64,000 nt of DNA, taken from NCBI GenBank assembly GCA_028583405.1, contig JAPTMU010000155.1, forward strand, positions 248,663 through 312,662. Direction: 5' to 3'. The number at the start of each line of letters is the position of its first letter. Position 1 is the stretch's first letter. The notes below the pieces were generated by a model that was not told where the DNA came from, made no database searches, and was given only the letters and a program-made list of their open reading frames with translations. This document shows positions 10,401 through 56,000 of the stretch, piece by piece. Source of the stretch: Pogonophryne albipinna. Taxonomy: Eukaryota; Chordata; Actinopteri; Perciformes; Artedidraconidae. The translations under genes were made by a program, and so were the position numbers.

Positions 10401-12228
10401 CAGGGGAAATTAAATTAAAGGTGGGGTAGGTAATTTTGGAGAAACCAGCTCGAGTGCGCTAGAATTTGAAAATACACAACCGGAAAAAATCTGCCACTTC
10501 CTTACAGAGCCCCTCCTCCAACACACACGCGCACATGACCAATGAGGGCACGAGATAAGTTTGTGCACAGATGAAAGGCTGACAGGCAGGTAGGCCATCC
10601 AGTTATTTTAGCCGGGCCGGCTAAAATGATTGGTCGTGCTTTTTACAGTACTACGGCTTCCACAGATGACATTTTTTTATGGATTTTTTGTCAAAGCACT
10701 TAAGATATTCATTGCTATCGGGATGTTAAGAGCATTCCATGGAATATAACAACAAGTGTATCTCGAGCCGGTTTCTCAAACTTACCTACCACACCTTTAA
10801 GGCTTTTTATGAAAACCTGGTCCTCTGCAGTAGAGTTTCCGGCCTGAGAAGGGAAGCTGAGGATTCTCTCACCTGGCTTGGGTTTGGGCTTGAACGGGGC
10901 CTTGGTTACTGCCTTGGAGGGGGCTTTGGTGGTAATGGTGGTGATGTCACCAATTGAATCAAAACCTGCACACAACATTGACAGCTCAAACCTAGAGATC
11001 GACGGGACTTCAGTTATAAGTCCACTGTAAATGATTCAACAGCATAAGTAGTATTACTGATGCTGTTTCAATCACATTAGTATGCATAAAAAGTGACAGG
11101 TGACACGCCCCCAATTATGCAAATGAGCTAAGTCCCGCCTCCATTGTTCGAAACCCTTTGATGTGATTGGGTACAATCATGTTAATGAGCTAAGTCCCGC
11201 CTCCCATTGTTCGAGATCCTTTGATGTGTTGATTAAGGTATGTGTGGAATCCCCCTCAGGGTATTGCCTTTGTTGTCTATTTCTTTGATGTGTTGATTAA
11301 GGTAGTCTCTTTGAAGTTATATTGTCTGATAGGTAGGTGTGGAATGCCCCCCAGGGTAGTGCCTTTGTAGTCTAATTCTTTGATGTGAGATAATAGGTAG
11401 GTGTGGAATGCCCCCCAGGGTAGTGCCTTTGTTGTCTATTTCTTTGATGTGTTGATTAATGCAGTCTCTTTGAAGTTACGCTGTCTGGCCCCCTCAGGGT
11501 TGTATAATCTAATTAGCCTGTGATGTTATCCCTTTGAGGTGGTGTGTTATAAGCCTTTTGATGTTAATCTATGTGTGTCTTTGAAGTTAAGTGTGAGACT
11601 GTCTAACCCCCTCCCCGCCTAGGCCTCTCCCCCCTTTCTCCACCCCTTCCTTTCCCTTCGGTTGTGTACTTTTCAGAATACGTAAAGGGGGAAACAAATA
11701 AAACAATTTAAAAAAACATGATCTTTGTCTTTTTTTATAATTACTATACACCACTATAAGAATTTCCTGTAAGCAACAAAAAAGAAGGTTTGAATGGTGA
11801 AAAAGACTCACCTTTACAGTGCCTCCCACTCAACATAACAAGTCCCGCCCTCCTCACCAGATCATTTAAAAGTAAGGGGGTGGAATTAGATGAAAATAGG
11901 AATATTCTCAAATTAAAAAAGACAGTAATCTCCACTTACCAAGTCACCTTGCAAAAAAGAAAAATGGCCAAGAGACGCCTGTGACAACTTACCGATGTAG
12001 CGCCATTCAAGAAACGAATGCCTCAGCGGGGTGGGAGTCAGAGCCTACAGCCAGAGATCTTTGCATAAACTTATCTCGTGCCCTCTTTTTGGTCATGTGG
12101 AGCGCGTTCATGTGTGCTGGAGGAGGGGCTATGTGAGGAAGTGGCAGATTTTCGGTTGTGTACTTTCAAATTCTCGCTCACTGGAGCTGGTTTCTCCAAA
12201 ATGACCTATCCCCTACCTTAAGAACAAT

Positions 12229-12273
<45 letters not shown>

Positions 12274-15200
12274 GGAGTTGGCCTTTTGTGTGGGGGTTAG
12301 AGATAAGCCTGGTATGTTAATCTGTATGTTGATTAAGACACTTTCTGTGAGGTGAGAAGCGAGGGGATGGAGTTCGGAGAAATACGTTCAAAACTAAATA
12401 AAACAACCATTATTTTTCACTCACTAAGACACATAAAAACGTTATTGTCCTCTCTAGATTTGATTCAGGGTTTTGCTCTAAATGATTAGTGCTTGCTAAG
12501 GATGTTTTCTTTTCAAGTTCTTGTGAAACTGTTAACTACAAGGAAGTATCTGTTTTTGCAAAGAAGGTATTCATATTAATTTAAAAAAGATCTTATTTAG
12601 GTTTTTGTGTACTACACTCCTTCTAATCCAGGGAGTTTAGGAGGTGTGGATAAACTCCATAGAGCTGTACAGAATGAAATGGGTAAACAAGTCAATGTAG
12701 AGAAAGTCAGAGAATATTTATCTGAGCAGGATGCATATACTTTGCATAAGCCGGCTAGGGTGCATTTTGTAAGAAACAGAATTTTCGTACTCAGGCCGCT
12801 ACAACAATTTCAAGCAGATCTTTGCGATATGCAGTCACTGTCCAAATATAATGATGGTTTTAATTATTTGTTAACAGTCGTAGATGTATTTTCGAAAAAA
12901 GCCTATGCTCAGGCATTAAAGAAGAAGACGGGCATAGAGGTTACCAAGGCTTTTTGATACAATTTTAACACACAGTCAGATGCCCAAAAAGATACAAACA
13001 GACGCAGGGAAAGAATTCTTTAACAAAGTTTTTCAAACCTTATTGAAGAAACGAGGTATTGCACATTATGCAACAGCCAGTGATATGAAGGCATGTGTGG
13101 TAGAGAGATTTAACCGTATGCTGAAAACTAAAATGTGGCGGTATTTACAGCTAAAAACACTCATAGATATATAGACGTCTTACCTGAACTAATTGAAAGT
13201 TACAATAATAGTTATCAGCGAAGTATTAAAATGACACCAATGCAGGTGACCAAGGAAAATGCGGCTCAAGTGTTTCGGAACCTGTATACCCCCTCTAGCC
13301 ATCGTAAAAAAGCTGCTGCCAAAATGAACTTTAAGGAGGGGGAGCTTGTAAGGATATCCAATTTGAGAGGGGTATTTGATAAAAAATATGAGCAGAGTTT
13401 TACAGGGTAGTGGTCAGCTTTTTATACACAAAGTGTATCTTTCAGTAACTTTCTGAGAAAATTAAGCATAAATCAGTCAAATGTTCAAAACAGCCTTCAC
13501 TGAAATAGCCTCAAAATCACAAAATGCCATTAAGAGTCAGAATCCTAACAAAATCTACTAAAACAAAGTTCTTCATTATCTACTTTTTCAGCTTTTATAC
13601 ACAAAGTGTATCTTTCAGTAACTTTTCTCAGAGAATTAAGCATAATTTTGTCAAATGGTCAAAACAGCCTCTGTTTTTCAAGCCTCAAAATCACAAACGG
13701 CCATTAAGAGGCAGAATCCTAACGAAATCTACTGACACAGAGTACTTCATTATCTACTTTTCAGCTTTTTTACACAAAAGTGTATCTTTCAGTAACTTTC
13801 TCAGAGAATTTAAACATAAATCGGTGAAATGTTCAAAATAGCCTTCACTGACATAGCCTCAAAATCACAAATTGTCATTAAGAGTCAGATTCTTAACGAA
13901 ATCTACTCAGAGTACTTCATGGTAGTGGTCAGCTTTTTTACACAAAGTGTATCTTTCAGTAACTTTCTGAGAAAATTAAGCATAAATCAGTCAAATGTTC
14001 AAAACAGCCTTCACTGAAATAGCCTCAAAATCACAAACTGCAACTTTTTAAACAGAGTCAGACATCGATGGACATTATACTGGTGAAAAAGACACTCACT
14101 TTTGCAGAGGACTCAGCCTCCAACTCAACATAACAAGTCACACCCTCCTCACCAGATCATTTAAAACTAAAGACCCCTCAAAGAAAAGCATTGTGTTTTC
14201 TACCTATGTAAAAGGTCTTATGAAAATGTGTTATCTCTGTATCAAGATGATGTGTTTAAAAATGAATCTTGTGAAAAATACCAACTGTGTGAGAGACGTC
14301 ATAAAGACACTCATTTTAACCACAGTGTTTGGTCTCTACAATTGTTTAAAGATTGTTACAAAATGTAAAAAAAAAAAAAAAAAGGTATGGAGACAAAATT
14401 AATTCAGGTGACTCTGTCTTTTATTAGGAAAACAAAAATATAAGACAAATGGTTTAAAGGGGGGGTAGGTAAGTTTCAGAAACCGGCTCGAGTGCACTAA
14501 AATTTGAAAATACACAGCCGAAAAGAATCCGCCCTTCCTTCAGACTTCCTTACAGAGCACCTCCTCCAACACACATGAACGCGCACATGACTTAGGTTGG
14601 CTATATAGTTCAGGGGAATTGTAAACCATACAAACCTGTCCAAGAGAAAAAGAGCGACCACGGCGTCAGATTTCAACTCGGTGTGTATGGGGGTTATTCC
14701 CTATCTTTATTCAAGAGCGTGGTATTTACATTTGAGAGCATACTTTATTGATTTCCTTCACTCAAACCCTGTAATCGCACCAAAGACAAACCAAAGAGTA
14801 ACCGCCCTTACGGGACGCTGTAATAAGTAAAACGAACGCACCCGCAAGGACACCTGGCCTCCTATTGGTTGAGGGATTTTGACAGGATTGTTGCACAAAA
14901 GTTTCGAGCGCACAGAGAATAAATCTGAGAGCAGAAAAAATCCGTAAGCAGCAATATATCTGAGTGCAAGCGTACAGTTTGAGCAGAAGCAGAGCAAATC
15001 TAAGTGCAAGCAGGCACTATTTGAGTGCGAGGACAGGGTTTGAGGGAAATAAATACATAAAGTATGCTCTCAAATTTAAATACCACGCTCTTGAATAAAG
15101 ATAGGGAATAACCCCCATAGGTGTGTTCCATCAGTAGTCGCCATCGTTGAAAAGCAACTCCGATATTGACTCTGGTTTGAATTCTCCTAGTTTCCACTTT

Positions 15201-18200
15201 GTTTTTGTTCCTAATTTGCTCCGTTACATTATTTCTTTTGCCACCAGTAGACGATGTTGAACCTAACTCTGCCATGGTGAAAGTGGCCGCCTGTTGCTGG
15301 CGAGTCATTGAAGTACTGCTGCAATGCACGCCCAATGACGGCACGCCCAATGAGGGCACGAGATACATTTGTGCGTGCACGAGATGGAAGGCTGACAGAC
15401 AGGACGGCAATCCAATCCGTTTAGCGGCCCGGCTAAACGGATTGGTCGTACTTTTTACAGTATAAACAAGGCTGTTTTGACCATTTGACTGATTTATGCT
15501 TAAATTCTCTGAGAAAGTTACTGAAAAAAACACAAAAAACAGAGCATACAATGAGAGCACATGATACATTTTAAATGTTTCGTTTACAATACTATTACTA
15601 TATATGAAAGCAAAAAAAAAAAAAAAAAAAACACATTTTCATTTTGTAATGGTTGTTTAATTGAAAACACAACATTCAACACATTTTCATAAAAAAACAC
15701 ATTACATTTTACCAAGATAGTATCGTAGTGCATACAAGGTAATAGACTTAACGATTTGCACTGCTGCTTCTCTCCGTGTTTCATTTACAGTGATCGCTTT
15801 ATCGTTCAATTCCCATACTCTACCCGCCTTAAGAGACACTATTTTCGGATACAATTTCTCCATTTTCACCCCTTTCCTCTGGTTCTCCCAAAAAGATAAC
15901 GTAGAGACTTTTTCTGACTCTGGAGGAATGTAAGGGGAGTTTTCAGGGGACTCTACCTGCCTTAAGAGACACTATTTTCGAATTTTTTTATCCATTTTCA
16001 CCCTTTTCTCTGGTTCTTCCAAAAGTTAACTTACACTATTTCTGACTCTGCAGGAATGTAACGGGAGTTATCAGGGGACTATATCCGCCTTAAGAGACAC
16101 TATTTTCGGATATATTTTATCCATTTTCACCCTTTTCTCTGGTTCTTCCAAAAGTTAACTTACACTATTTCTGACTCTGGAGGAATGTAACGGGAGTTAT
16201 CAGGGGACTTTATCCGCCTTAAGAGACACTATTTTCGGATACATTTATCCATTTCAGTGAACCAAGGCAGTTTTGAACATTTGACAGATTTATGCTTAAT
16301 TCTCTCAAAAAGTTACCGAAAGATACACTTTTATGTTTTAAAAGCTGACCACTACCATGAGATTTCGTCAAGCATCTGACTCTTAATGGCAATTTGTCAT
16401 TTTGAGGCTATTTCAGTGAAGACCGTTTTGAACATTTGACAGATTTATGCTTAATTCTCTCAAAAAGGTTACCGAAAGATACACTTTTCTTTTTAAAAGC
16501 TGTCCACTACCATGAAAGTGCTGGAGACTGCCCGTCTTGTCACATAGATTATACTATCTGTGTCGTAGTAGAAAAAACTCTGTGCTGTAATTTCTCCAGT
16601 TCACTGTACAGTTTGTGATTTTGACGCTATTTCAGTGAAACAAGGCTGTTTTGAACATTTGACAGATTTATGCTTAAATTCTCTGAGAAAGTTACTGAGA
16701 GATACACTTTTGTGTATAAAAGCTGCCCACTACCATGAAGTACTCTGTTTGAGTAGATTTCGTTAGGATTCTGACTCTTAATGGCAGTTTGTGATTTTGA
16801 GGCTATTTCAGTGAAGGCTGTTTTGAACATTTGACTGATTTATGCTTAATTTTGTCAGAAAGTTACTGAAAGATACACTTTGTGTATAAAAAGCTGACCA
16901 CTACCATGAAGTACTCTGAGTAGATTTCGTTAAGAATCTGACTCTTAATGACAGTTTGTGATTTTGAGGCTATGTCAGTGAAACAAAGCTGTTTTGAACA
17001 TTTGACAGATTTATGTTTAAATTCTCTGAGAAAGTTACTGAAAGATACACTTTTGTGTATAAAAGCTGAAAAGTAGGCGTTGTAGTTTTTTCATCTATCA
17101 TTTCCAACCAAACAGCAATAGGTCAAATTTAAGAATAAGTAATAGTTTGTCAAGATTTTGCAGAACAAGTCAAAAGTATAGTTTGTCAGAAATATGGAAA
17201 AGTCATTGTGTGCAAAATAGTATGCTGAAAATCAAAAGAAAGAAACTCTATTCATTACAAATTAATGAATATTTTACCCAGTTCTAAAGTTTTGCACCCC
17301 TTAAAGAAAACCCCATTCCTACCAAGTACTTCATATTATACCCTTTTGTTAAGTGTTGCGTACATCAAGGTGTATCTTAAAGTATTTTGGTAGCAGAAAA
17401 TAACTAAAATATGTAAGGTTATCAGAAAAAGAAAAAACCTTGTTTAACTGAATAAGTGTTTTTACAGCAATAAAAAACCCTGCCATTAAAAGAAAACCAA
17501 ATTCCTTACAAAAGCACTTCATAATCTACCAGTTGTTAAGTGTTGCATACGCCAAAGTGTGTCTAAAAGTATCTTAGTAACACAAGAAAAAGAGAAAAAA
17601 GCGTTGATGTTAACAAAAACTGGATTGTTCCACTGAAATAATATATAAATAATTTCAAAAAGTGCGTTTAAAAGAAATGTATTCAGATAAAGTATTTTGT
17701 TAGAATATTAAGTCCAAGATGGTTACATTTTTTACCCCTTAAACCATTTGTCTTATATTTTTGTTTTCCTAATAAAAGACAGAGTCACCTGAATTAATTT
17801 TGTCTCCATACCTTTTTTTTTTTTTTTTTACATTTTGTAACAATCTTTAAACAATTGTAGAGACCAAACACTGTGGTTAAAATGAGTGTCTTTATGACGT
17901 CTCTCACACAGTTGGTATTTTTCACAAGATTCATTTTTAAACACATCATCTTGATACAGAGATAACACATTTTCATAAGACCTTTTACATAGGTAGAAAA
18001 CACAATGCTTTTCTTTGAGGGGTCTTTAGTTTTAAATGATCTGGTGAGGAGGGTGTGACTTGTTATGTTGAGTTGGAGGCTGAGTCCTCTGCAAAAGTGA
18101 GTGTCTTTTTCACCAGTATAATGTCCATCGATGTCTGACTCTGTTTAAAAAGTTGCAGTTTGTGATTTTGAGGCTATTTCAGTGAAGGCTGTTTTGAACA

Positions 18201-19922
18201 TTTGACTGATTTATGCTTAATTTTCTCAGAAAGTTACTGAAAGATACACTTTGTGTAAAAAAGCTGACCACTACCATGAAGTACTCTGAGTAGATTTCGT
18301 TAAGAATCTGACTCTTAATGACAATTTGTGATTTTGAGGCTATGTCAGTGAAGGCTATTTTGAACATTTCACCGATTTATGTTTAAATTCTCTGAGAAAG
18401 TTACTGAAAGATACACTTTTGTGTAAAAAAGCTGAAAAGTAGATAATGAAGTACTCTGTGTCAGTAGATTTCGTTAGGATTCTGCCTCTTAATGGCCGTT
18501 TGTGATTTTGAGGCTTGAAAAACAGAGGCTGTTTTGACCATTTGACAAAATTATGCTTAATTCTCTGAGAAAAGTTACTGAAAGATACACTTTGTGTATA
18601 AAAGCTGAAAAAGTAGATAATGAAGAACTTTGTTTTAGTAGATTTTGTTAGGATTCTGACTCTTAATGGCATTTTGTGATTTTGAGGCTATTTCAGTGAA
18701 GGCTGTTTTGAACATTTGACTGATTTATGCTTAATTTTCTCAGAAAGTTACTGAAAGATACACTTTGTGTATAAAAAGCTGACCACTACCCTGTAAAACT
18801 CTGCTCATATTTTTTATCAAATACCCCTCTCAAATTGGATATCCTTACAAGCTCCCCCTCCTTAAAGTTCATTTTGGCAGCAGCTTTTTTACGATGGCTA
18901 GAGGGGGTATACAGGTTCCGAAACACTTGAGCCGCATTTTCCTTGGTCACCTGCATTGGTGTCATTTTAATACTTCGCTGATAACTATTATTGTAACTTT
19001 CAATTAGTTCAGGTAAGACGTCTATATATCTATGAGTGTTTTTAGCTGTAAATACCGCCACATTTTAGTTTTCAGCATACGGTTAAATCTCTCTACCACA
19101 CATGCCTTCATATCACTGGCTGTTGCATAATGTGCAATACCTCGTTTCTTCAATAAGGTTTGAAAAACTTTGTTAAAGAATTCTTTCCCTGCGTCTGTTT
19201 GTATCTTTTTGGGCATCTGACTATGTGTTAAAATTGTATCAAAAAGCCTTGGTAACCTCTATGCCCGTCTTCTTCTTTAATGCCTGAGCATAGGCTTTTT
19301 TCGAAAATACATCTACGACTGTTAACAAATAATTAAAACCATCATTATATTTGGACAGTGACTGCATATCGCAAAGATCTGCTTGAAATTGTTGTAGCGG
19401 CCTGAGTACGAAAATTCTGTTTCTTACAAAATGCACCCTAGCCGGCTTATGCAAAGTATATGCATCCTGCTCAGATAAATATTCTCTGACTTTCTCTACA
19501 TTGACTTGTTTACCCATTTCATTCTGTACAGCTCTATGGAGTTTATCCACACCTCCTAAACTCCCTGGATTAGAAGGAGTGTAGTACACAAAAACCTAAA
19601 TAAGATCTTTTTTAAATTAATATGAATACCTTCTTTGCAAAAACAGATACTTCCTTGTAGTTAACAGTTTCACAAGAACTTGAAAAGAAAACATCCTTAG
19701 CAAGCACTAATCATTTAGAGCAAAACCCTGAATCAAATCTAGAGAGGACAATAACGTTTTTATGTGTCTTAGTGAGTGAAAAATAATGGTTGTTTTATTT
19801 AGTTTTGAACGTATTTCTCCGAACTCCATCCCCTCGCTTCTCACCTCACAGAAAGTGTCTTAATCAACATACAGATTAACATACCAGGCTTATCTCTAAC
19901 CCCCACACAAAAGGCCAACTCC

Positions 19923-19991
<69 letters not shown>

Positions 19992-22900
19992 ATTGTTCTT
20001 AAGGTAGGGGATAGGTCATTTTGGAGAAACCAGCTCCAGTGAGCGAGAATTTGAAAGTACACAACCGAAAATCTGCCACTTCCTCACATAGCCCCTCCTC
20101 CAGCACACATGAACGCGCTCCACATGACCAAAAAGAGGGCACGAGATAAGTTTATGCAAAGATCTCTGGCTGTAGGCTCTGACTCCCACCCCGCTGAGGC
20201 ATTCGTTTCTTGAATGGCGCTACATCGGTAAGTTGTCACAGGCGTCTCTTGGCCATTTTTCTTTTTTGCAAGGTGACTTGCATTGTGGAGATTACTGTCT
20301 TTTTTAATTTGAGAATATTCCTATTTTCATCTAATTCCACCCCCTTACTTTTAAATGATCTGGTGAGGAGGGCGGGACTTGTTATGTTGAGTGGGAGGCA
20401 CTGTAAAGGTGAGTCTTTTTCACCATTCAAACCTTCTTTTTTGTTGCTTACAGGAAATTCTTATAGTGGTGTATAGTAATTATAAAAAAAGACAAAGATC
20501 ATGTTTTTTTAAATTGTTTTATTTGTTTCCCCCTTTACGTATTCTGAAAAGTACACAACCGAAGGGAAAGGAAGGGGTGGAGAAAGGGGGGAGAGGCCTA
20601 GGCGGGGAGGGGGTTAGACAGTCTCACACTTAACTTCAAAGACACACATAGATTAACATCAAAAGGCTTATAACACACCACCTCAAAGGGATAACATCAC
20701 AGGCTAATTAGATTATACAACCCTGAGGGGGCCAGACAGCGTAACTTCAAAGAGACTGCATTAATCAACACATCAAAGAAATAGACAACAAAGGCACTAC
20801 CCTGGGGGGCATTCCACACCTACCTATTATCTCACATCAAAGAATTAGACTACAAAGGCACTACCCTGGGGGGCATTCCACACCTACCTATTATCTCACA
20901 TCAAAGAATTAGACTACAAAGGCACTACCCTGGGGGGCATTCCACACCTACCTATCAGACAATATAACTTCAAAGAGACTAACTTAATCAACACATCAAA
21001 GAAATAGACAACAAAGGCATTACCCTGAGGGGGATTCCACACATACCTTAATCAACACATCAAAGGATCTCGAACAATGGGAGGCGGGACTTAGCTCATT
21101 AACATGATTGTACCCAATCACATCAAAGGGTTTCGAACAATGGAGGCGGGACTTAGCTCATTTGCATAATTGGGGGCGTGTCACCTGTCACTTTTTATGC
21201 ATACTAATGTGATTGAAACAGCATCAGTAATACTACTAGCATACAAGTAGACAGGGCTCGTGAAAAACCAAGATGGGAGACAGTTTTGCAGATGAAAGTA
21301 GTCAGAATTTGGATTTTTTTTCGAAGTTAACCACTCCCTTTAAGAATATCTGATACCTTCTGAAAAACAGAGTTTTCAAAGAGGAGCTCATGTTGTAGGA
21401 GAACTTTAAGAAAAAAACGGTCAAAGATTTGCAATCCTGTACCACTACTCCCAGTGCAGACGCTTCCCAGTGCAGACGCTTTTCTGCTTGCTCTTGCCTC
21501 TGCTTACTTGTTATGCTGATTTTCCTATTCTTATTCTCTGAAAACTTCGAGCAGCGGCTCCTGGACATTAACTTATCACTGGGACAGTTCATCTTCGTAA
21601 ATAGACGGAGGGTTTCAGCCATATTTCAACATTTTTACGACGACCTCAGTCTTACAGTAGCGTGGCCTAGCAACAGCTAAAGCCTGGTAGGCTACTGCAT
21701 GCTATTTAGCTTAAGCTAGTTGGTAGCAAAATGCCTCCGTTCTCTACAGATGACTTCCAAAAACGTATACAGAAGATGGCTGTGTTGGAAATGAAAATGC
21801 AACGGTTGGAAGTTAACGTGGAAGTGAATGGACTATGTCGTGGGAATGACACGACTTTACCAGTGTTGCAAAATAATGGAAAAGGGTATGCTAACCCACA
21901 GCTAGTTAGCAGCTACAAGGATTCCAAGGAACAGGATGGCTGTGTACTGGGTAATAAATCTACAAGTGGTAGTCCTCCCTGGAACTCTCTGGGTGCAAAG
22001 CCTAAGAGTAAATCATTTCCATGGGATTTGGGAGGACGGATAACAGGCAGAGCCCAGCGCTCTGAAATCTGTGATGCGACCGGCTGGCCTGCATTGTTAT
22101 CACCCAGGAAGAGCGCCTCTTCAACCCCTATTCATACTAGGAGACAGCCGTGGACAGCTGCTAAAGGGAGAATTACAAACAATCCTCCTAAACCACCAAG
22201 TGTGCCAATCCAGAAAAGATACGCTCCGCTGACCGAGAGCCAGAGATCTCTTTCTGATGACCTGGATAACCTGTCCTCTTCACACAGCAGGGTAAGGACC
22301 AATAGCTACTCCAAAAGTAAAAGGCTAGAGGGAAAGCTAACGACTGGGCCTGAAACTCTGATTGTGGGTGACTCTGCTGTAAGAGATGTAAAAGGTCTGT
22401 GTAGTAAGAACAACACCAAAGTACTCTGTTTTCCCAAGGATGTGGTATCTGACTTGGCTGAAAAGATCCTGCATATTGGGGCTGAACATCCAACTGTGAA
22501 GAATGTGGTACTGCACATTGGAACAAATGATGTTATGAAACAAGAGTCAGAAGTGCTGAAAGAAGACTTTAAATGCTTGTTGGAAACTGTCAGCTCTCTA
22601 AATGCAGAGGTGTTCATCAGTGGCCCTCTACCGCCAGTCAGAAGAGGAGTGGAGAGATTCAGCAGATTGTTTGCACTGAACACCTGGCTTTCAACTGTCT
22701 GTACTGACCATTCTGTCCATTTTAACTTTTTCTGGGATCGCAGACATCTTTTCAAGGCAAATGGAGTTTGCCTGAACAAGTCAGGAGTGAAATTGTTTAT
22801 CTCTAACATATTCAACTGCCTGCGTCATCAATCTGTTCCCTCTGCCAAGGACAAGCGGCAAGAGGAATCAAAACAGGAGAAAGACACAACACATCGCGCT

Positions 22901-25900
22901 GAAAACCCTGAAGAAGTATCACTGCACCCGCCTGAGGAATGTTCTGATTATGGGAGACCTATGACACAAATGGAGGAGTCTCCACTGCCCGTCACCCTCC
23001 CTGTCAACGCCCTTGAGGATACTCTTCATTCATCCCCCAGCTCTCTCTACTCTCCGCTCACCCTTTCACCCTCGCCCACCCCCCTGGAGTTCGATGACCA
23101 CATGAAGGCGAGACGCAGGGTTGGCAGCATGTCCTTTACCCCCACCCCTCAACGACGCCCACCAAAATCACCGAAGCAGAGATGCGCACCATCTCCCCCG
23201 GCTTACAGTGTAGCCCTCACCCTGCCATCCCATGATGAGAGGAGCAGGGTGGTGGGTCCTCCCTCCCCTTCAAAGCCTGATAGGGATGTGTGTGTACAAA
23301 ACGCTGCAAACTGATATCTGCTGGGTCCAGGCTCAAGGGCGTATGGCACTCTCAACTCTTTCCAGGACATGCCGGGGCCCTGCCTGCCTGTAGCTTTGCC
23401 GATATCTGTGTTGATAGGTAATAGATTAAGAGCAGTGAATCATCTTAGATACAGGAAGCGCTCAAACGTTTGTGTGAGTTTATCTAATTTAGCAGTGATT
23501 CCATGTCAGCCACAGCTTGTTACAAAAAACCTGACTGATAGTGTGTTTAACGAACTTAAACTAGCTTTATTAAATGTCAGGTCTTTGGCAGGAAAAACAT
23601 TTTTAATCAATGATTTTATCACTGAGCACAAGCTCGATTTTATGTTTTTAACAGAAACTTGGATTGAACAAAATAACAGTGCAGCTGTTCTTATCGAATC
23701 AACCCCTCCCAACTTTAGTTTTATGAGTCAGGAAAGAATGCATAAGAAAGGGGGTGGAGTTGCTATTCTGTTCAATGATTCCCTTCATTGCAGGAAGACA
23801 TCTTATGGGAACTTTGCTTCTTTTGAATATGTGGCCCTTCAGCTGAAATGCTCCTCTCGAGCTCTGTTCCTAAATATCTATAGACCACCCAAATACTGTG
23901 CAAGCTTTTTTGATGATTTTACCGAACTGCTGTCTATAGTGTGTATTGACTTTGACCGTCTAGTCATTTTTGGTGATTTTAACATCCATGTTGACAACCC
24001 CCAGGACAGAGGGGCAAAAGAACTGTTTTGTGTTCTTGATAGCTATGGACTGACTCAGCATGTGACGGAGCCCACGCACAATAAGGGGCACACTCTGGAC
24101 TTAATTATCTCAAAGGGTCTGAATATCTCTAAGGTTGTGGTGACTGATGTTGCACTCTCTGACCATTCCTGTGTTTTCTTTGAGAGCTCTATTTCTGTTC
24201 ACAAAAATGTTCAGAAAGAGCTAACCACAAAGTGATATTTAACTGAAAATACTAGGGAAATGTTTACTCAGAATTTTTCTTCCACACTTGCCCCTGCTAA
24301 CATCTCAGTAAATGAGCTAGTAGATCGTTTTAATTCAAAAATTAAAAATGTTATAGATGCCATTGCTCCAACTAAGGTAAAGGAAGTGTCTGGCAAGAAA
24401 ATATCTCCATGGAGAAAGGCCATGACCGTGAAAACAGAAAAAAGAGAATGTCGAAAAGCTGAACGCAGGTGGCGAAAAACAAATCTCCAGGTTCACTTTG
24501 AAATCTATAAAGAGAGACTTGGCCTTTATAATTTGGAATTGAAAAACGCACGACAATCGTTCTTCTCTGACATCATTACCAAAAACAAAAACAACGCACG
24601 TGCCTTGTTTGCTACCGTCGACAGACTAACTAAGTCAGTGTCAGTAGCCTCTGAATTTCTATCCACCAGGGCGTGCAATGATTTTGCCTCCTTCTTCACT
24701 GACAAAATTCAGAAAATCAGACAAGCAGTCAGTGCCTCTGCATCAGGAACAGCAAATGTGTTGTCTCTGTGTCCACTTAACATCAATTCAAACACCATGA
24801 CACAATTCCATCAGATTAATGATAAAAACCTAGAGGACATTATTCAACTTCTGAAATCCTCCTCCTGCTGCCTTGATATTATTCCAACAGGATTTTTCAA
24901 AGATGTTTTGCCTTGCATGGCCTCAGATCTACTTCATATAGTAAACAAATCTCTTCACTCAGGTATTTTTCCACAGGCCCTGAAAACTGCAGTCATTAAA
25001 ACGCTCTTAAAAAAGAATAATCTAGATGCTTCAGTAATGAACAATTACAGGCCCATATCAAACCTCCCATTTCTAGGTAAAATCATTGAAAAAGTTGTTT
25101 TTCAACAGTTGAGTAACTTCTTGCATTTAAATAACTGTTTGGATGTGTTCCAGGCAGGCTTTCGTCCAAACCACAGCACTGAGACTGCTCTTGTAAAGGT
25201 CTTTAATGACATCCACTTAAACACAGACAGTGGCAGAACTTCAGTGTTAGTATTATTAGATCTCAGTGCTGCGTTTGACACTGTTGACCACAGCATATTA
25301 CTAGACCGACTGGAAAACTGGGTGGGACTTTCGGAAACAGTTCTAAATTGGTTTGAATCCTACTTAAAGGACAGAAACAACTTTGTTTCTATAGGTAAAT
25401 ACACATCTGAGTTGACAAATATGACATGTGGGGTACCTCAAGGCTCCATCTTGGGGCCTCTTCTCTTTAACGTCTACATGCTACCACTGGCTCAGATAAT
25501 GAAGAACAACAAAATAAGTTACCATAGCTATGCGGATGACACACAAATTTACGTAACAATTTCACTAGGAGACTATGCTCCAATTCAAACACTGAGTAAG
25601 TGCATTGAACAAATCAATGACTGGATGTGTCAGAACTTTCTCCAATTAAACAAAGATAAAACTGAGGTAATGGTTTTTGGAGCCAAGGCAGAACGTATAA
25701 AAGTTAGCGCTGAGCTTCAGTCTGCAATGTTCAAAACAACAGATAAAGCCAGAAATCTAGGTGTAGTCATGGACTCTGACCTGAGTTTCAACAGTCACAT
25801 TAAAACAGTTACTAAATCAGCCTACTATCACCTAAAGAATATATCTAGGATTAAAAGACTAATGTCACAGCAGGATTTGGAAAAACTTGTCCATGCTTTT

Positions 25901-28900
25901 ATCTTCAGTAGACTGGACTACTGCAATGGTGTCTTCACAGGTCTCACTAAAAAATCTATTAGAAAGCTGCAGCTGATTCAGAACGCCGCTGCTCGAGTCC
26001 TCACTAACACTAAGAAAGTGGATCACATCACTCCTGTTCTGAAGTCTTTACACTGGCTTCCTGTGTGTCAAAGAATAGATTTCAAAATACTGCTGCTGGT
26101 TTATAAAGCACTGAATGGTTTAGGCCCAAAATACATTTCTGACCTCCTGCTAAATTATGAACCATCCAGATCTCTCAGGTCTTCAGGGACTAGTCAGCTT
26201 TCTGTCCCCAGAGTCAGAACTAAACATGGTAAAGCAGCGTTCAGTTATTATGCTCCAAATATCTGGAGCAAACTCCCAGAAACCTGCAGGTCCGCTGCAA
26301 CTCTTACTACTTTTAAATCCAGGCTGAAGACTTTTCTTTTTGTCGCTGCTTTTAATTGAACTATTCATATCTTAGACTGCACTGTAACTTTTATCCATGT
26401 ATTTTTTCTTTTAATGTTTATTTTATTCACTTTTTAATGATTTTAAATGCCATTTTCTTAATGTCTTTCATTTTTTGTAAAGCACTTTGAATTGCCTTGT
26501 GTTGAAAAGTGCTATATAAATAAACTTGCCTTGCCTTGCCTTAAATCTAACAATGCTACATCATTGATTCCCATTGACTTACACTTACAAATGATCCTGT
26601 CACTCTTCCAGGTTAAGTTAGTGTTATTATAGATTTAAATGATTTGATTCTTACCTGCTCCTGCCTCTGCTCCTCCAGCTGGTGCAGCTGGTGCCGCTGG
26701 CTTTGGGGCGGGGGGCGGTGCTGAAGAATATTAATTATTGTTATATTTAGACATAATTCAACAAGTCATTACTCTGCTGTTAGTCATTCATAAGTAGATA
26801 TTGTAAATCATGTAATGTATGTTTGTGTGGGTCTGAATCTGAAGGAATGCTTGCTACACATTTTTCTTTTAATGTTACGCCATTTTTCTTACTTATCCAT
26901 TGACTTCCATTCATTTCCGTATGCTATTATCTTGTATTGATAAAGTAATATGCATAAGACTGAAAACCTGATATAGTCACGGATTATACATCACAGGTTT
27001 CAAGTTTTCTTAATGCCTTTAAATTGTAGAATATTAATGGAAGTCAATGGAGATACAACATTTTCTGGCAATTATCATTTTTTTTATTCAAAAGACGGAT
27101 CACAATATTTGTTATCTTTTTCAAGGAATTTGCAGATAAATATATCGGGTTTATGAGACGCTGAGTCCCAAAAAGAAGAAAAAGTTTTGTTTTTTTAAAG
27201 TATTTTGTATTGTACTTACATGGTTTACTTGTGTCATCATCACCCAAAGCATCAGCTAGATCGAAGTCCTGAGAAAGGACTACTGTTCAGAGAGGACAGA
27301 GGGACAGACAGAAGACATGTTACATTCAATCTGACAAATAACACCAAAAGGGACTCAACACATGCTGTAGAGTGTGGATATCTTCTGTCTGATGTAGGCT
27401 CTTTGGTAGATGTGTGACCACTTTACTGATGAGTTCCCAGGCCCTGCCAGTGTTACTGTGTGTCACACAGTTTGGTGCCAAACTGGGCCCAGAGTGCACT
27501 AATCGGCACTATTTGTTGTCTGGGTTGCAAAACGGAGATCATTTACCAGACGGGACACAAAAGCAGAGACAAACAAACACTAGCTATCTTCATTGGCTGC
27601 CAGTCACAAACAAGCACGGTGTGTGTGCCTAACCCTAGATTGGAACTAACAGAAATTATACTTTCATCACCATTGTAGCTGAATATGCTATGACTACATA
27701 ACACAATTAAATAGAATCACTACTTTAAACGGACACATACAAAAACAAATTGTAACGATACTCCATAGCATGCAGTACAATTTAAAATGTATTTATTGTG
27801 CATAATTGAAGAAGACTCGTTTCCCAGATTACACGTCAAACATACTAATCATGTACACTACTTGTAATTCTGATTTATGCTGTAGATTCACTCTGCTCCA
27901 CCCTTTCTATCTATTTTTAATCTAGTCTTTTTCTTCCTCGGCTGTCACACCTGGGAATCAATTCTTATCTTGGAGCCGCAGTCGAGGCTTCATGCTTCTT
28001 ACCCATGCTAGGGCACATTTCAAACTGCTCCTTTTAATGATTTTTTTGGCATTTCTCCTCTATTCAATAGTCTACAGAAAAGGCAGACAGGGAAGGTTGC
28101 GAGAGAGCAAGTACAACATGTACAAAGGCACCCAGCTACTTTAGAATCGACTGAGGAACATTTCAATTATCGACCCTCAGGCAAGGTGTCCCCAAGGACG
28201 TAAAATGCTGAATGGGTTGGCTCCATAACACCCGAGGAACTTCAGTTACATTACCAGACGTTGAAGAATTTAATAAAATTGTAAAGGTAATAAAGACTTC
28301 CCTACCATTGCCATTTTCTTGAATGAGCTCCAAGCTGCCATTAGGGAAACTAGCTATGTAATAACCATCAAGAGTTTTACTGCACATCTGTGCAGTAAAA
28401 CTCTATGGGTTCAGATGTTCCACTCTGAGCTTCTGCTATAGTGTATTGTCCTGTTCTAGAGACAGTGCATGCAAGCCTTGGTGGTGTAGTTACCGGTACT
28501 CAGATTATAAATCTAATTTAGGAGGGGATATAATTGAAAGAAACTAATTTGTACAACATGTTATCTGACCACATTCACAACTAATTGAAATAGACAAGTA
28601 AAAGAGCTGCAACAATAAGTCCATTAATTGATTAGTAGTCCTGCTTTTCGTAGTTTTAAAATCGTGTTTAACTCATTATTTTTGGGTTTTAGACTGTCGT
28701 AACAAGGATTGGGACATTAAGAAACTGAAATAGATTTGTTTTATTTGTTTGATATTTGTTTATATAGACTAAACTCAAGAATGTAATTGGCAGATAAATT
28801 GATAGAAGAAATAAAAGCTCTAATAACAGCCCTATAACAAAAATGCAACCAAATCTCCCAGAAAGGTTTCCATTCATGTTGCATTGTGGGTTTTGTAGGC

Positions 28901-31900
28901 ACCAGGTTCTGACAAGGGAAAACAATTTGTGGCTCAAGAAGACCCTTTTTCTTGTTCTGCTACAATATCCTTTTTCTTCTTAACTGTTCATTTTAACTCT
29001 AGTTCTACGGAGTGCGACTCTGAATCAGTGCAGTTCTCTATTCAAATGAGGTTAGGCATAACATAGGGCTGCTCGATTATGGCAAAAATCATAATCTCGA
29101 TTATTTGGGTCAATAATTGATATCACGATTATTAAAAACGATTATCCATTTACACTGAACAAAAATATAAATGCAACACTTTTGTTTTTGCTCCCATTTT
29201 TCATGAGATGAACTCAAAGATCTAAAACATTTTCTATATACACAAAATAACCATTTCTCTCAAATATTGTTCACAAATCTGAAAAAATCTGTGATAATGA
29301 GCACTTCTCCTTTGCCGAGATAATCCATCCCACCTCACAGGTGTGGCATATCAAGATGCTGATTAGACAGCATGATTATTGCACAGGTGTGCCTTAGGCT
29401 GGCCACAATAAAAGGCCACTCTAAAATGTTCAGTTTTATCACACAGCACAGTGCCACAGATGTCGCAAGTTTTGAGGGAGCGTGCAATTGGCATGCTGAC
29501 AGCAGGAATGTCCACCAGAGCTGTTGCCCGTGAATTGAATGTTCATTTCTCTACCATAAGCCGTCTCCAAAGGCGTTTCAGAGAATTTGGCAGTACATCC
29601 AACCGGCCTCACAACCGCAGACCACGTGTAACCACACCAGCCCAGGACCTCCACATCCAGCATGTTCACTTCCAAGATCGTCTGAGACCAGCCACTTGGA
29701 CAGCTGCTGCAACAATCGGTTTGCATAACCAAAGAATTTCTGCACAAACTGTCAGAAACCGTCTCAGGGAAGCTCATCTGCATGCTCGTCGTCCTCATCG
29801 GGGTCTTGACCTGACTCCGGTTCGTCATCGTAACCGACTTGAGTGGGCAAATGCTCACATTCGATGGCGTCTGGCACGTTGGAGAGGTGTTCTCTTCACG
29901 GATGAATCCCGGTTTTCACTGTTCAGGGCAGATGGCAGACAGCGTGTGTGGCGTCGTGTGGGTGAGCGGTTTTCTGATGTCAATGTTGTGAATCGAGTGG
30001 CCCATGGTGGTGGTGGGGTTATGGTATGGGCAGGCGTATGTTATGGACGACGAACACAGGTGCATGTTATTGATGGCATTGTGAATGCACAGAGATACCG
30101 TGACGAGATCCTGAGGCCCATTGTTGTGCCATTCATCCACGACCATCACCTCATGTTGCAGCATGATAATGCACGGCCCCATGTTGCAAGGATCTGTACA
30201 CAATTCCTGGAGGCTGAAAACATCCCAGTTCTTGCATGGCCAGCATACTCACCGGACATGTCACCCATTGAGCATGTTTGGGATGCTCTGGATCGGCGTG
30301 TATGACAGCGTGTTCCAGTTCCTGCCAATATCCAGCAACTTCGCACAGCCATTGAAGAGGAGTGGACCAACATTCCACAGGCCACAATCAACAACCTGAT
30401 CAACTCTATGTGAAGGAGATGTGTTGCACTGCGTGAGGCAAATGGTGGTCACACCAGATACTGACTGGTTTTCGGACCCCCCAGACCCCCCCAATAAAGC
30501 AAAACTGCACGTTTCAGAGTGGTCTTTTATTGTGGCCAGCCTAAGGCACACCTGTGCAATAATCATGCTGTCTAATCAGCATCTTGATATGCCACACCTG
30601 TGAGGTGGGATGGATTATCTCGGCAAAGTTGAAGTGCTCACTATCACAGATTTTTTCAGATTTGTGAACAATATTTGAGAGAAATGGTTATTTTGTGTAT
30701 ATAGAAAATGTTTTAGATCTTTGAGTTCATCTCATGAAAAATGGGAGCAAAAACAAAAGTGTTGCATTTATATTTTTGTTCAGTGTACTTTGAAAACATC
30801 CATTTATTGAAAAAAAAAATGTGAACAGTATGTTTTTAACAGTTGATCACCCTGAACTTTAAGTATAATTCAACTGAAAAACCAATAAAAAAAATTGAAT
30901 AAAATAATCGTTTTATTTCGATTATGTTGTTTTCATAATCGTTGGAAGCCAAAATCGTAATTGCAATTAAAATACGATTAATCGAGCAGCCCTAGCATAA
31001 CACTGATTAGGTAATAAAAACGTGCACACTCTGACAGGACCTTCTGTGTGCATTTCTGATGTGCCACAGGACCATTCACCACCCTGACCTTGACATATTA
31101 CTTCCCGCAGCCTACAGACCCCCCTCCTTCCTGCTGCCCCACCCACCTACCGCCCAAGGGCAAGGGTACCAGCCAGATGTGACCAATCAGAATAACTCGT
31201 ACCGCTTCCTTCATTTTTGGGTCAACAGCAATCCCTGGACCCATGTTACGGTAGGTAAAAAAGCTCCAGTCACTGAGGTTAACTGATTTTAGATTTAGGC
31301 AAAAGAGAGCATTAGGAATCCATGTACTCTGCAATAAAAGATACCAAAAAAACAGGTGTAAAGTCTAAAAAGTTAAGGGTGGAGACTGAGATTCTGCCTA
31401 CATCCAAACCCAAAATCTTTGCCAGATTAACTCAACACTAATATAACTTTTTTTATAAGTGATACTTGACATCACTTGACACTTGTAATTGTATTCCTAA
31501 ACCCAACATTTGGCTAGAAAATGTATTCACATAATTAGCATCTAATTTGCATAGTAGCATTTCATTAACTAGCTGGCTGCTGGTTGGGTTTTTTTGATTG
31601 CCACAACCAGGTGAATCTTTTATGACTACAGCTTTTCAGTCAGTCCATACCTTAAAATATGGGTTGCCATGCAGACCTTAGAATGAAAAAATACCTCCTA
31701 AAAAGCAATCAAATGAACACCTGCTTGTATTGGATTAGTGATTTAAGGCGAGTACAATTGTAGAGTGAGGACATGTGCTACCGTTAAACCGAATGAACTC
31801 ATCTGCTTTAAAATTGTTCACCTTTTAGTGACTAACTTTCCATATTAATAAGCACTGAGAGTGACATCATTGTCAGCATGGCATGTGCTGCTGCAAACCA

Positions 31901-34729: not shown

Positions 34730-49336
<14,607 letters not shown>

Positions 49337-51650: not shown

Positions 51651-53881
51651 CATGTTTAGTACAGTTGCAGGTCCATCTTCAGCACCCGTGGCCGATATTG
51701 GTGGTGAGGAAGATGATGAGAGGGAGAGAGATCAGCGCAAGTGGGGAGAGGGAGGAGAACTCGCGGTAAGCAGAAGCTAAGAAAATTAGGAAAAGATTAT
51801 TATTAAGGTTGTGATACTCTGTAGTTCTGGAACCCATTAATATCCCCTTGATGAAGCACTAATAAGACAAATATTATAAGAGAAACATTCGTTAGCCTAC
51901 AAGCTAGTAAGCTGGCTTTTTTAGGTTTTCCCTGGCAAGTTAAAATATAGCTTAATACGTTGTCTCATTGAAAGAATGTCATTATTTTGTTCACCACCAT
52001 TCATGAACAATTACTGTCAGCTGGCAGCTTGTTTTGTTTAGTTTATTTACTTATTTGGTTATAAGGGCAACAGTGGTCTTTTGGGACCTGAAAAAAATGT
52101 TTATAGTCAGCTTTTTGTGGTAGTTTTGATTGACAATATATAGAATGAATAATATAGAAATAGATACAAAAATTGAGGCACACATGTAGTTTTGATCATT
52201 AACTGTGTGGTATTGTTATGTCAATGCCTATTTGTATGGACCTCTATCAGGGAATCCATTCATTCTGTATCATTGTGTTGAGCCAGGTAGCATCCCCAGA
52301 GGAGGAGAGTGTCAGGGAGAGTGAGGAGAGCAAAGAGCAGGAGGACATAGATTACTTTGCCCGCCCCGAGCCATTTATGTTACAGATGTTTTTAGAACAG
52401 CACCCACAATACCAGAAATCCAGTTGTGCAGAAGGTATTCTTCACCTGTAAAGATGGCACCAGCAGAAAGTGGCTTACATATTGCAAGGGACGTCATATG
52501 TTGTTTTGTTTTGTATGTCTGGCATTTGGGAAGAGGACTGACACTGGCACATTTATAACTGGAATGTCAGATTGGAGGCACGCACACCAGCGTACAGAGG
52601 AGTACAAAAAGAGCCTTACACATTCAACCTGTGCTGAAGCTTTTTTCTTACGGTGCTCTAAAGCAGACATCGAAAGCATGTTTGCTGGCAGTCAGATGTC
52701 TGCTCATAGGGAACAAGTCCGAAAGAGACGTCAGGTTTTGGAGCGTGTGGTGGATGTGGTGAAAGTGCTTGGGAAGAGGGGGCTAAGCTACAGGCAGGTG
52801 GAGAATGAGGGAGCATATATGCTTGCTGACAACACCGTGGACCACGGTAACTTTTTGGAGCTCATCCTTTTATTAGAAAAGTATGATGTCTGCTTAAAAG
52901 AGCATCTGGATGATTGCGTATAGAGAAGAGCAAGAAATTGCACCAATCCAGTGGAACAAAAGGTAGAGGGTCTCTCATCACCCTACTCTCCAAAACTACT
53001 GTTAACTCCATAATAGAAACTGTTGGTAGTCTAATCAAAGAAAGTATCTCCAGTGATGTCCAGAAGGCCGGAATGTTTTCTGTTCAGCTGGACACAACAC
53101 AAGACATAACTTCTCAGGATCAGTGTTCAGTAATCTTAAGATATGTCAATGAGACTGTGCAAGAGAGGCTTGTGGCTTTAGTGAAGTGCCATGCATCCAC
53201 TGGACAATACTTTGTGAACTTGCTCTCAGAGGTCTTAGAGCATCTGAAACTGGACAAGGGCATGTGTATAGGTAATGCAACAGATGGAGCATCCAATATG
53301 CAAGGCCGGTACAAAGGATTTTCTGCACTGATGACCTCCCAGTCACCCACTCATGTCCATGTGTGGTGCTATGCTCATGTTCTTAATCTTGTCCTGGCTG
53401 AAACTACCCAAACTGTCATCGAATGTGGAACACTTTTCAACCTAATCAATGACATAGCAGTGTTTATCAGGGAGTCATATCAGAGGGTCAATCTGTGGGA
53501 GAAACAAGCCCAATTGGGGAGAGGCGCCTGTGGCTCTTGTGGAGAATCTACAGTCAGAGCTGGACAGTGGGACAGGCTTAAAGCATCACATGTGGAAGAA
53601 TATAAGACCAGAATGGTGGAAGATGGATCAGAAGGAAAGGAAGAGGAGACTGAAATTGTGCATAAAAGCTGCTCCTCCTGCAAAAATTGCCCACTGTGCT
53701 GCTATGAGATACTCAGGCGGTTCAACATGTTGTCAGATGCTTATCATGTCCTTGGGCTTGCATATAAGTTCCTGCTGACCCTTTCCCTAACTCAGGTGGC
53801 CTGTGAAAGAACACACACACACCCACCCCGAGGAATGGACGCTGGACATAGTGCCCCTCTCTACAACAAGCATTCATTTTA
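51651..53881 (+). pseudogene. hAT transposase, ZMYM1/DUF4371 type, frameshifted
   Basis: A possible first exon (51651-51769, MFSTVAGPSSAPVADIGGEE) has donor GCG|GTAAGC. The main part follows AG at 52288 (VASPEEESVRESEESKEQED). It then shows a TTF-type zinc-binding stretch (SRKWLTYCKGRHMLFCFVCL), SVQLDTTQDITSQDQCSVIL (DUF4371 block with an acidic residue), GNATDGASNM, HVWCYAHVLNLVLA and, near the end, FLLTLSLTQVACER of the dimerisation domain. Frame changes near 52418, 52915 and 53511 break it, and the domain ends abruptly after the CER motif. It is not functional as read. Confidence 0.82.
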
Positions 53882-54299
53882 GTTATTTCAGTCTAGTATA
53901 TAAGTTACTTTGTGTGTACAGTATATATATAGAGTATATATATATATATATATATATATCTTAATAATAATAATAATAGATTTAATTTGTTAGCGCTTTT
54001 ACAGGTGCTCAAAGACGCTTTACAGATATAGTGAAGGGAAAAGAAAAGGAAGGAACAACAAATAAATATATAACTATCTTGCTAGTTGTGTACTTTTGTA
54101 ATTTATGTGGGATTTCTGTCAAATGTTGCTTCAACTCCCTTTGTAAATTTAAATCTGTCTCTTTCAAACCTATTCTCAGGAAAAAAAATAACGACAGTGG
54201 ATAGTATTTTTGGTTAAGCCTGTGTTCCTTCAGTTCTGTGGGCTCTGTGAGGTTCTGAGAAACCAGCCGCCTAAGACTTGCACTATAGCCCCTTGCGTG

Positions 54300-55400: not shown

Positions 55401-56000
55401 GTCCGAGGTATTTGCGTTATATACGCGGTATTTGTGAGAGGTAAAAGAAAGTCATTTGCTGTTGCATGTGAGAAAGATGACTACCTTAAGGCTTTTAGAA
55501 GTTTAGGTACTAACTTGGAGCAATCAACATTTGCACTTCTTTGCCGGTATGTATGTCACCTATATGATCAGCCAGCAGCCGAAAATGTAAATGATGCTAG
55601 GTACAAGGCTTTCTGTATGGTATCATCGGCCTTGCCAGAATTAAGCATTCCCCCTACTCCTGATGCCCTCCATCAGCACTGCAAAAGGGCAAATTACCAG
55701 GCAGCAATAATGAGGTCCTGTCTCAAAAGAGAAATAAATGCTCCATCACCTGCTGGATATGGTTGGGAAATAGAGGATGGGAACTTACACGTCACCTGGA
55801 TGACAAGAAATCCTGCCCCTGACAGTGTGTTGAATGTGATACACTGCAGCTGCAAAGAGTCTGCCTGTGAGAAAGGCAGATGTTCATGCTTCTCTGCAGG
55901 ACTCTGTTGCACAGACTTATGTCGTTGCTCAAATTGTGCAAATAAAAAAGAAACAGAGGAAGAGAACGATGACTGCCCTGACACTGACAGTGAGGAATAG
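55401..56000 (+). CDS. CXC (tesmin/TSO1-like) domain protein of transposon origin, probably a C-terminal part
   Basis: The frame is open from 55401 to the TAG-type stop at 55998-56000 and has no internal stops, but also no ATG before the conserved part, so it is likely a terminal exon or 5'-truncated. Blocks: QSTFALLCRYVCHLYDQPAA, VNDARYKAFCM, LPELSIPPTPDALHQHCKRA, NYQAAIMRSCL and GYGWEIEDGNLHVTWM. A cysteine-rich end reads HCSCKESACEKGRCSCF and GLCCTDLCRCSNCANK. The C-x-C and C-x4-C pattern resembles CXC domains, which bind zinc and DNA in tesmin/TSO1 proteins. Similar proteins are common as unnamed multicopy genes in fish. A poly(A) signal-like AATAAA is at about 56055. Function is unknown. 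Confidence 0.6.
   Translation, partial: VRGICVIYAVFVRGKRKSFAVACEKDDYLKAFRSLGTNLEQSTFALLCRYVCHLYDQPAAENVNDARYKAFCMVSSALPELSIPPTPDALHQHCKRANYQAAIMRSCLKREINAPSPAGYGWEIEDGNLHVTWMTRNPAPDSVLNVIHCSCKESACEKGRCSCFSAGLCCTDLCRCSNCANKKETEEENDDCPDTDSEE

Follow-up and report, generated by a model that had tools for sequence, protein, structure and literature searches.

The 64,000-nucleotide stretch of the Pogonophryne albipinna genome analysed here (the window; contig JAPTMU010000155.1) contains, between positions 11041 and 21243, an element that an earlier note, made from the sequence alone, had described as a giant foldback derived from a Maverick (Polinton) transposon. When we searched the source assembly (1.07 Gb), we found that this element is one member of a large, young family. 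We consider it probable that the family consists of giant palindromic non-autonomous Mavericks that go back to a single snap-back event and are replicated and integrated by the enzymes of full Mavericks. Genome-wide counts given below are lower bounds, with only the best candidates scored, and the loci that we read were sampled by choice and not at random.

Palindromes with one common centre

Complete members of the family, 12.3-13.8 kb long, are near-perfect palindromes. Symmetry is greatest in C790, which is 13,487 bp long, with arms of 6,743 bp and 6,743 bp around a ~29-nt centre, and has the foldback layout of long inverted arms with a short loop. Other palindromic elements measure 13,772 bp (C1c), 13,372 bp (C1b), 13,078 bp (C10) and 12,303 bp (C6), and copies without a palindromic centre measure 11,394 bp (C1a), 11,067 bp (C7) and 9,871 bp (C8b). 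The arm length of 3.4-3.5 kb first reported holds for the matched parts in the window, not for complete copies, in which arms of 6-7 kb meet at a centre of ~28 nt.

We read two samples of ten loci each. Eight loci of the first sample came from inverted pairs of stretch Y, a piece of the arm that is gone from the left arm in the window, and two (C10 and C7) from inverted pairs of terminal repeats with one stretch Y match, so an inverted layout was the criterion of selection for these ten. The centre piece was palindromic in seven of them, and a search for an axis over nine pieces found one in the same seven. The self-inverted matches at the centre extend over 4,547 bp at 99.5% identity in C790, 3,859 bp at 99.4% in C6, 4,845 bp at 99.2% in C1c and 3,601 bp at 98.3% in C1b, with shorter ones in C10, C9 and C8a. 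The second sample was chosen as inverted pairs of terminal repeats, and five of its ten loci have a palindromic centre. Also in this sample, the arms of C3a are 99.9% identical around a centre of ~0.6 kb, C16 and C39 have short inverted stretches only, C3c has none, and C23 is a full Maverick. At C39:447900-451900 the family ends occur with a different centre, which has open frames of 324, 175, 163 and 155 amino acids.

All of the palindromic centres that we read (12/12) have one common sequence of ~28-29 nt, with small changes in length and a shortened form in C10. It occurs in both orientations, which would be expected of a symmetrical element that can be inserted either way round, and except for AGATG/CATCT it is mostly not self-complementary. 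A 32-base sequence from the palindrome tip, the end of the arm next to this centre, has 525 exact matches in the genome (247 forward and 278 reverse), and the reversed pattern, used as a control, has none in either direction. The first 100 places listed form 54 clusters and include 17 pairs that are 49-62 bp apart and all ordered -/+, which is the arrangement of intact centres. Extrapolating from the places listed, there would be roughly 280 loci and 90 intact centres. Given that the centre is common to all and that the 6-bp duplications described below are specific to each locus, one founder palindrome was amplified by integration.

Family members elsewhere in the genome

With the outer 1 kb of the arm as query, 1,981 first-look candidates were obtained genome-wide, and the best 40 that were scored contain 70 matches, many of them arranged as inverted pairs 8-15 kb apart. 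Stretch Y gave 775 first-look candidates, of which the best 40 were scored, every one at 99-100% identity; 12 inverted pairs (counted by eye) account for 24 of them. Whether any second copy exists was a point on which the original reading depended, and ten other loci carry the integrase piece, minisatellite A and stretch X in both arms, i.e. in 20/20 arms of the first sample. Minisatellite B was reached in 19/20, the left arm of C7 stopping within stretch Y.

Every terminus read in the other loci has AGTAGT. Both ends were read in nine other copies (C9, in which the reading stopped short of the right terminus, is not counted among them), and eight of the nine have a perfect 6-bp duplication specific to the locus: ACTGTG, TACCTG, GAGGCA, GTCATG, AACAGA, GATATA, TGAAGC and GACTTG. 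Further copies with duplications of their own, named in the earlier note as a check, thus do exist. Ginger elements have 4-bp duplications, and an assignment to this group was ruled out by the 6-bp duplication together with the end motif. The idea that the window copy is a lone fossil in which one arm was copied by gene conversion was overturned when the genome search found the family.

Full Mavericks and the composition of the arm

We searched the genome with the integrase tail (query P0107) and scored the best 150 of 325 candidates. The tail is spanned by 25 of the 150 matches, 21 of these without a stop inside the match, and the other 125 end at query residue 55-70, mostly at 55-56, which is where the integrase of the palindromes ends. 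A search with DNA_pol_B_2 gave 78 matches over the cut-off from 59 candidates, all scored. A convergent polymerase is found within 30 kb of 20/25 tail-bearing integrases (two of which share one polymerase) versus a polymerase within 30 kb of 1/125 truncated ones, while 68/125 truncated integrases form inverted pairs (34 inward pairs) versus 0/25 tail-bearing ones. The proposal of a non-autonomous foldback Maverick family is supported by the other loci with the same arms.

C23 is a full Maverick of 28.8 kb with ~1.1-kb terminal repeats that are 97.4% identical to each other and a CTCTCC duplication. Its polymerase is ~5 kb from one end and its integrase is near the other, which is the layout given for vertebrate Mavericks in the passages of PMC8097293 covered here, where the integrase and polymerase modules are on opposite strands and both point toward the centre. 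The terminal repeats of C23 are 93-94% identical to those of the window copy over ~1.1 kb and 97-98% identical to those of C1a over ~1.1 kb, with lower values against C8b (73-84%). The earlier note had also advised looking for full Mavericks with shared ends, and C23 is a full Maverick with this terminal repeat; its match to the window copy is weaker in the outermost 128 bp. The C23 integrase is 97-98% identical to that of the palindromes, and integrase stretches from four further full Mavericks share 96-98% identity with that of the arm over ~798 bp. At C23:3093600-3097600, the centre of the full Maverick is filled by a tandem repeat that is open on both strands.

The right arm in the window matches the polymerase-side end of C23 from its terminus to position 1663, again more weakly in the first 128 bp, and matches the C23 integrase at 1649-2447 from the terminus, the two matches overlapping by 15 bp. 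Beyond 2447, going inward, there was no C23 match in the pieces fetched. C1a, C790 and C8b have the same join of the C23 polymerase-side end and the integrase, with small gaps. The arm is thus a join of two Maverick ends, one that took away the start of the integrase. An integrase is thus present in both arms, as first described, as a broken remnant joined to the polymerase-side end and not simply as the integrase end of the element.

Origin and spread

The form of the palindromes would fit a copy-back duplication of one end onto the other. In a linear Maverick genome replicated by protein priming, a strand with one good end might fold back at its centre and copy itself to the terminus. The product would be a molecule with two identical ends that would need only end priming and the action of the integrase, and no gene of its own; having two identical ends and no working genes, it would therefore be a helper-dependent genome. 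Mobility in trans is suggested by the shared ends, the duplications and the missing genes. Passages of PMC8097293 ascribe to the end repeats of Mavericks a presumed role in the jumping-back step of protein-primed replication.

We compared the arms of 11 elements from the integrase to stretch X (1.66-1.87 kb). In 10/11, each arm has its nearest relative among the elements read in the other arm of its own element, from which it differs by 0-11 bases; the exception is C6, with 14 differences. Nine of the 11 elements have at most one arm difference for which both forms are found elsewhere, and C6 and C1b have 12 and 6, so mosaic arms occur. The element at C6:22586521-22598823, which is palindromic, lacks a matching duplication and has mosaic arms, is likely a recombinant of two copies. 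Equal arms fit a hairpin intermediate at insertion, and conversion after insertion would fit them too. The arms would be the complementary strands of one hairpin, each round of replication would tend to make them equal again, and this would be why arms match within elements. In chromosomes, long palindromes are often unstable, and this would be why there are copies, the window copy included, that lack one side of the centre.

Several points weigh against a single snap-back origin with spread by the enzymes of full Mavericks. The snap-back event itself was not seen, joining two fragments end to end could yield a similar founder, and movement in trans is a deduction. The first 1.65 kb of the arm is polymerase-side and the integrase comes from the other end, so an earlier rearrangement in the founder is also needed. 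The centre piece of C1a, C7 and C8b has no self-inverted match (3/10 of the first sample), and half of the second sample is without an intact palindrome with the shared centre. Both ends of C6 were read and have no matching 6-bp duplication. Because C6 and C1b have arm differences that are shared with other elements, arms were not always equal at insertion. Within the window copy, a MITE (miniature inverted-repeat transposable element), the insert in it and the deletion described below sit oddly with an arm divergence of 0.2% unless the arms convert each other.

If the founder palindrome instead came from end-to-end joining of two Maverick fragments, by a chromosomal inverted duplication or the ligation of broken genomes, and then spread unchanged, the mostly non-self-complementary ~28-nt centre could be a small filler left by the joining. 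Two independent fragments joined at exactly the same inner point are less likely than a strand that copied itself, and each arm of C790 measures 6,743 bp, so we regard this origin as unlikely. Terminal repeats could also have been lengthened locus by locus through gene conversion past the end of the repeat, as was proposed for Galileo. Galileo of Drosophila shows such arm extension, inverted-repeat expansion in Polintons has been reported (both according to passages of PMC3573991), and the first 1.65 kb of the arm does look as if a polymerase-side end had been copied over to the integrase end. Independent events would not yield one centre at 12 loci, which rules conversion out as the source of each copy and leaves this explanation with very little probability; gene conversion may still account for a step before the palindrome.

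That the right arm is the assembler's copy of the left is extremely improbable. Long palindromes are a known source of misassembly, but the window arms differ in bases and in repeat numbers, the host flanks are unlike on the two sides, and the target duplications match in the window and in 8/9 other copies. It is also conceivable, though quite improbable, that the palindromes are not passive and that the truncated integrase, where its frame is open, acts as an inhibitor or helper. Among the 125 truncated matches listed, 60 keep an open frame of 269 amino acids (a by-eye count). Against such a role, the window copy and others have a broken frame, and pN/pS, the ratio of nonsynonymous to synonymous differences, is 0.67 for the 6 pairs formed by four open palindromic copies and 0.24 for the 10 pairs formed by five full Maverick integrases, so the truncated gene seems less restrained, with few differences behind either value. 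The truncated integrase seems from this to be cargo. The 60 open frames count against that reading as well, and the youth of the family alone could account for them.

Copy-back and integration by full Mavericks remains our preferred explanation, and a more speculative and rather doubtful extension of it is that the palindrome is a self-complementary hairpin-genome parasite of the virus-like Maverick. This would be a 12-14 kb element of the defective-interfering type that is replicated in hairpin form, carries polymerase-side sequence at both ends, is perhaps packaged, competes with the full element and entered the host germ line hundreds of times. A size of 12-14 kb is near the lower end of the published range for whole vertebrate Mavericks.

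The integrase remnant

The integrase remnant in the window has no start codon, has two frameshifts (at ~12.95 and ~13.14 kb) and has lost its tail at 13.40 kb. The D, D and E of the integrase core are still encoded, but in different frames, and the Pfam rve match is below the cut-off; only the truncated gene is present, in both arms. The tail is absent and cut at one place in all arms read (22/22). The first piece of the integrase has 105 homologues. The top five have identities of 65-74%, and where a source is named it is a fish: Lucifuga dentata in two cases and Nothobranchius rachovii in one. For the C-terminal piece, one relative is 93% identical over 65% of the piece, and another retains the tail that the window copy lost. 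The first piece has no match in PDB, and no relative was found in viral contigs by the integrase pieces, the terminal 23-mer or a 24-mer.

The copy in the window

The inverted arms, the AG...CT termini and the perfect AGCATA duplication that the earlier note described are borne out. The termini are AGTAGT...ACTACT, and the duplication is at 11041-11046 and 21238-21243. The left arm, 11047-14457 (+; 3,411 bp), is cut by a MITE insertion at a TTAA (14454-14457), and the part of the right arm that it matches is 17739-21237 (-; 3,499 bp). The right arm extends further to the palindrome tip and is 5.70 kb long in all (15534-21237, -). Between the matched arms there are three single substitutions and one differing block of 4 bp, and one arm has a 64-bp tandem unit more than the other; the CA run differs in length by 24 bp. 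The divergence is 0.12-0.21%.

From the terminus inward, the arm starts with a terminal repeat rich in tandem repeats. Its outer 217 bp, identical in both arms, is at 11047-11263 (+), starting AGTAGT, and at 21021-21237 (-), ending ACTACT, and is followed by overlapping subterminal repeats (11216-11487, +) with 64-bp tandem units, of which there are 1.9 copies in the left arm and 2.9 in the right. Then come an identical 177-bp half TTAA MITE (12050-12226, -; 19994-20170, +), the CA run, and the integrase remnant, directed inward (12601-13410, +; 18786-19595, -), which has the same lesions in both arms and differs at one base over 821 bp. Minisatellite A, with 3.7 copies of a 174-bp unit, occupies the place of the integrase tail (13414-14041, +; 18155-18782, -; 628 bp and identical), and stretch X follows (14042-14457, +; 17739-18154, -; 416 bp and identical), with its first ~140 bp similar to the subterminal region of full Mavericks. 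Further inward are stretch Y (17077-17734, -), minisatellite B (16251-17076, -), a 129-bp tandem repeat of 3.4 copies (15817-16254, -) and the palindrome tip (15534-15600, -), which in other copies lies next to the shared centre.

The arms had been thought to surround a separate core of 3.3 kb, and this is not so. The supposed core is the inner right arm from 15534 plus a MITE with a 755-bp insert (14458-15462, +). The right-arm sequence at 15534-17576 is 97.7% identical to half of the palindromic centre of another copy. The MITE (14458-14591 and 15347-15462, split by the insert) entered the TTAA of the left arm at 14458, and the empty TTAA is kept in the right arm at 17739-17742. It stops abruptly at 15462, the remaining left arm is missing, and a 70-bp minisatellite fragment lies between the MITE end and the start of the palindrome tip at 15534. 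The window feature is therefore a centre-deleted copy in which the left arm was shortened by a MITE insertion and a deletion. With rates of 2-8e-9, the divergence between the arms gives an age of 0.07-0.5 million years, which is a floor only, because the arms may convert each other. For the outer 0.9 kb, a post hoc test of whether the divergence is older gave a marginal result (p 0.058 or 0.044), which was not used.

We scanned 27 of the 34 open reading frames (at least 45 amino acids) of the core against Pfam and found none over the cut-off, no Maverick gene and no polymerase B. No capsid, ATPase or protease gene was found by Pfam among the scanned frames of the window, Pfam coverage of these Maverick genes being poor. 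A coding-like frame of 89 amino acids at 15702-15971 (-) was rejected, having no homologue and no Pfam match over the cut-off and overlapping the tandem repeat of the arm. By megablast, the only other inverted pairs of at least 300 bp in the window are two MITE copies and the minisatellite units of this element.

Relation to known systems

The palindromes are like the vertebrate Mavericks described in the passages of PMC8097293 covered here in their (AGT)2//(ACT)2 ends, 6-bp duplications and inward-facing integrase. That source gives (AGT)2//(ACT)2 or (AG)3//(CT)3 as Maverick end motifs, and for intact elements terminal repeats of 46-1,447 bp and eight core genes (seven in Xenopus), whereas complete palindromes are arm only, 6-7 kb on each side, with a truncated integrase in both. 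Candidates in its survey had integrase and polymerase matches 4-40 kb apart, and palindromic copies would escape because this was required. Galileo and Foldback of Drosophila also have long, internally repetitive inverted arms that grow by recruiting internal sequence, and some copies are almost arms only (PMC3573991). Unlike the palindromes, Galileo has a transposase of the P superfamily, and the covered passages of that paper give arms of ~0.3-1.2 kb and describe no single common palindrome centre. A deletion derivative of kalilo (Vierula and Bertrand 1992) is described as hairpin and duplex DNA in a title among the references of PMC11071308; it differs in being a senescence plasmid of fungal mitochondria.

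Tc4 of C. elegans is a nearly all-palindrome transposon of ~1.6 kb with a short loop, from a different superfamily and roughly one eighth as long. The kalilo plasmid is linear and protein-primed. In copy-back defective viral genomes and self-complementary adeno-associated virus, one end is copied onto both, and the molecule folds on itself and depends on a helper; unlike the palindromes, these are not a dispersed family in a host genome. Among the literature matches listed there is no palindromic or named non-autonomous vertebrate Maverick, with a mention possible in Kapitonov and Jurka 2006, Jurka et al. 2007 and PMC5898198. The terms sought do not occur in the main text of PMC12220804 or PMC10120064 and occur in PMC11071308 in one reference title only, and 'palindrom' is absent from PMC9341512.

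If the copy-back explanation is right, the family would be genomic evidence for extrachromosomal replication that is protein-primed and strand-displacing, and for helper dependence, and would bear on whether Mavericks behave as viruses with replicating linear genomes. Near-perfect 13-kb palindromes are among the least stable forms of DNA. Many insertions with comparable arms and graded deletions of the centre would make the decay of palindromes measurable in an animal genome, and arm pairs may serve as an insertion clock, like long terminal repeats.

Other features of the window

The TTAA-flanked MITE is ~390 bp long with ~40-bp inverted ends. Its copies in the window are at 10415-10802, 42956-43323, 12050-12226 and 14458-15462; the two long ones are 92% alike and the others are partial. 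The 755-bp insert (14592-15346) has a 95-bp inverted repeat of its own (14686-14780 and 15025-15119). Beside the element, at 21710-26359 (+), are open reading frames of the long interspersed nuclear element type with an endonuclease, a reverse transcriptase and long open frames, as well as a weak GDSL-like match below the cut-off. A frame at 52914-53882 (+) has a weak DUF4371 match, also below the cut-off. A Tc1-like transposase frame at 29412-30305 (+) is open over 297 amino acids, and a frame at 55401-56000 (+) has a tesmin/TSO1-like CXC domain.

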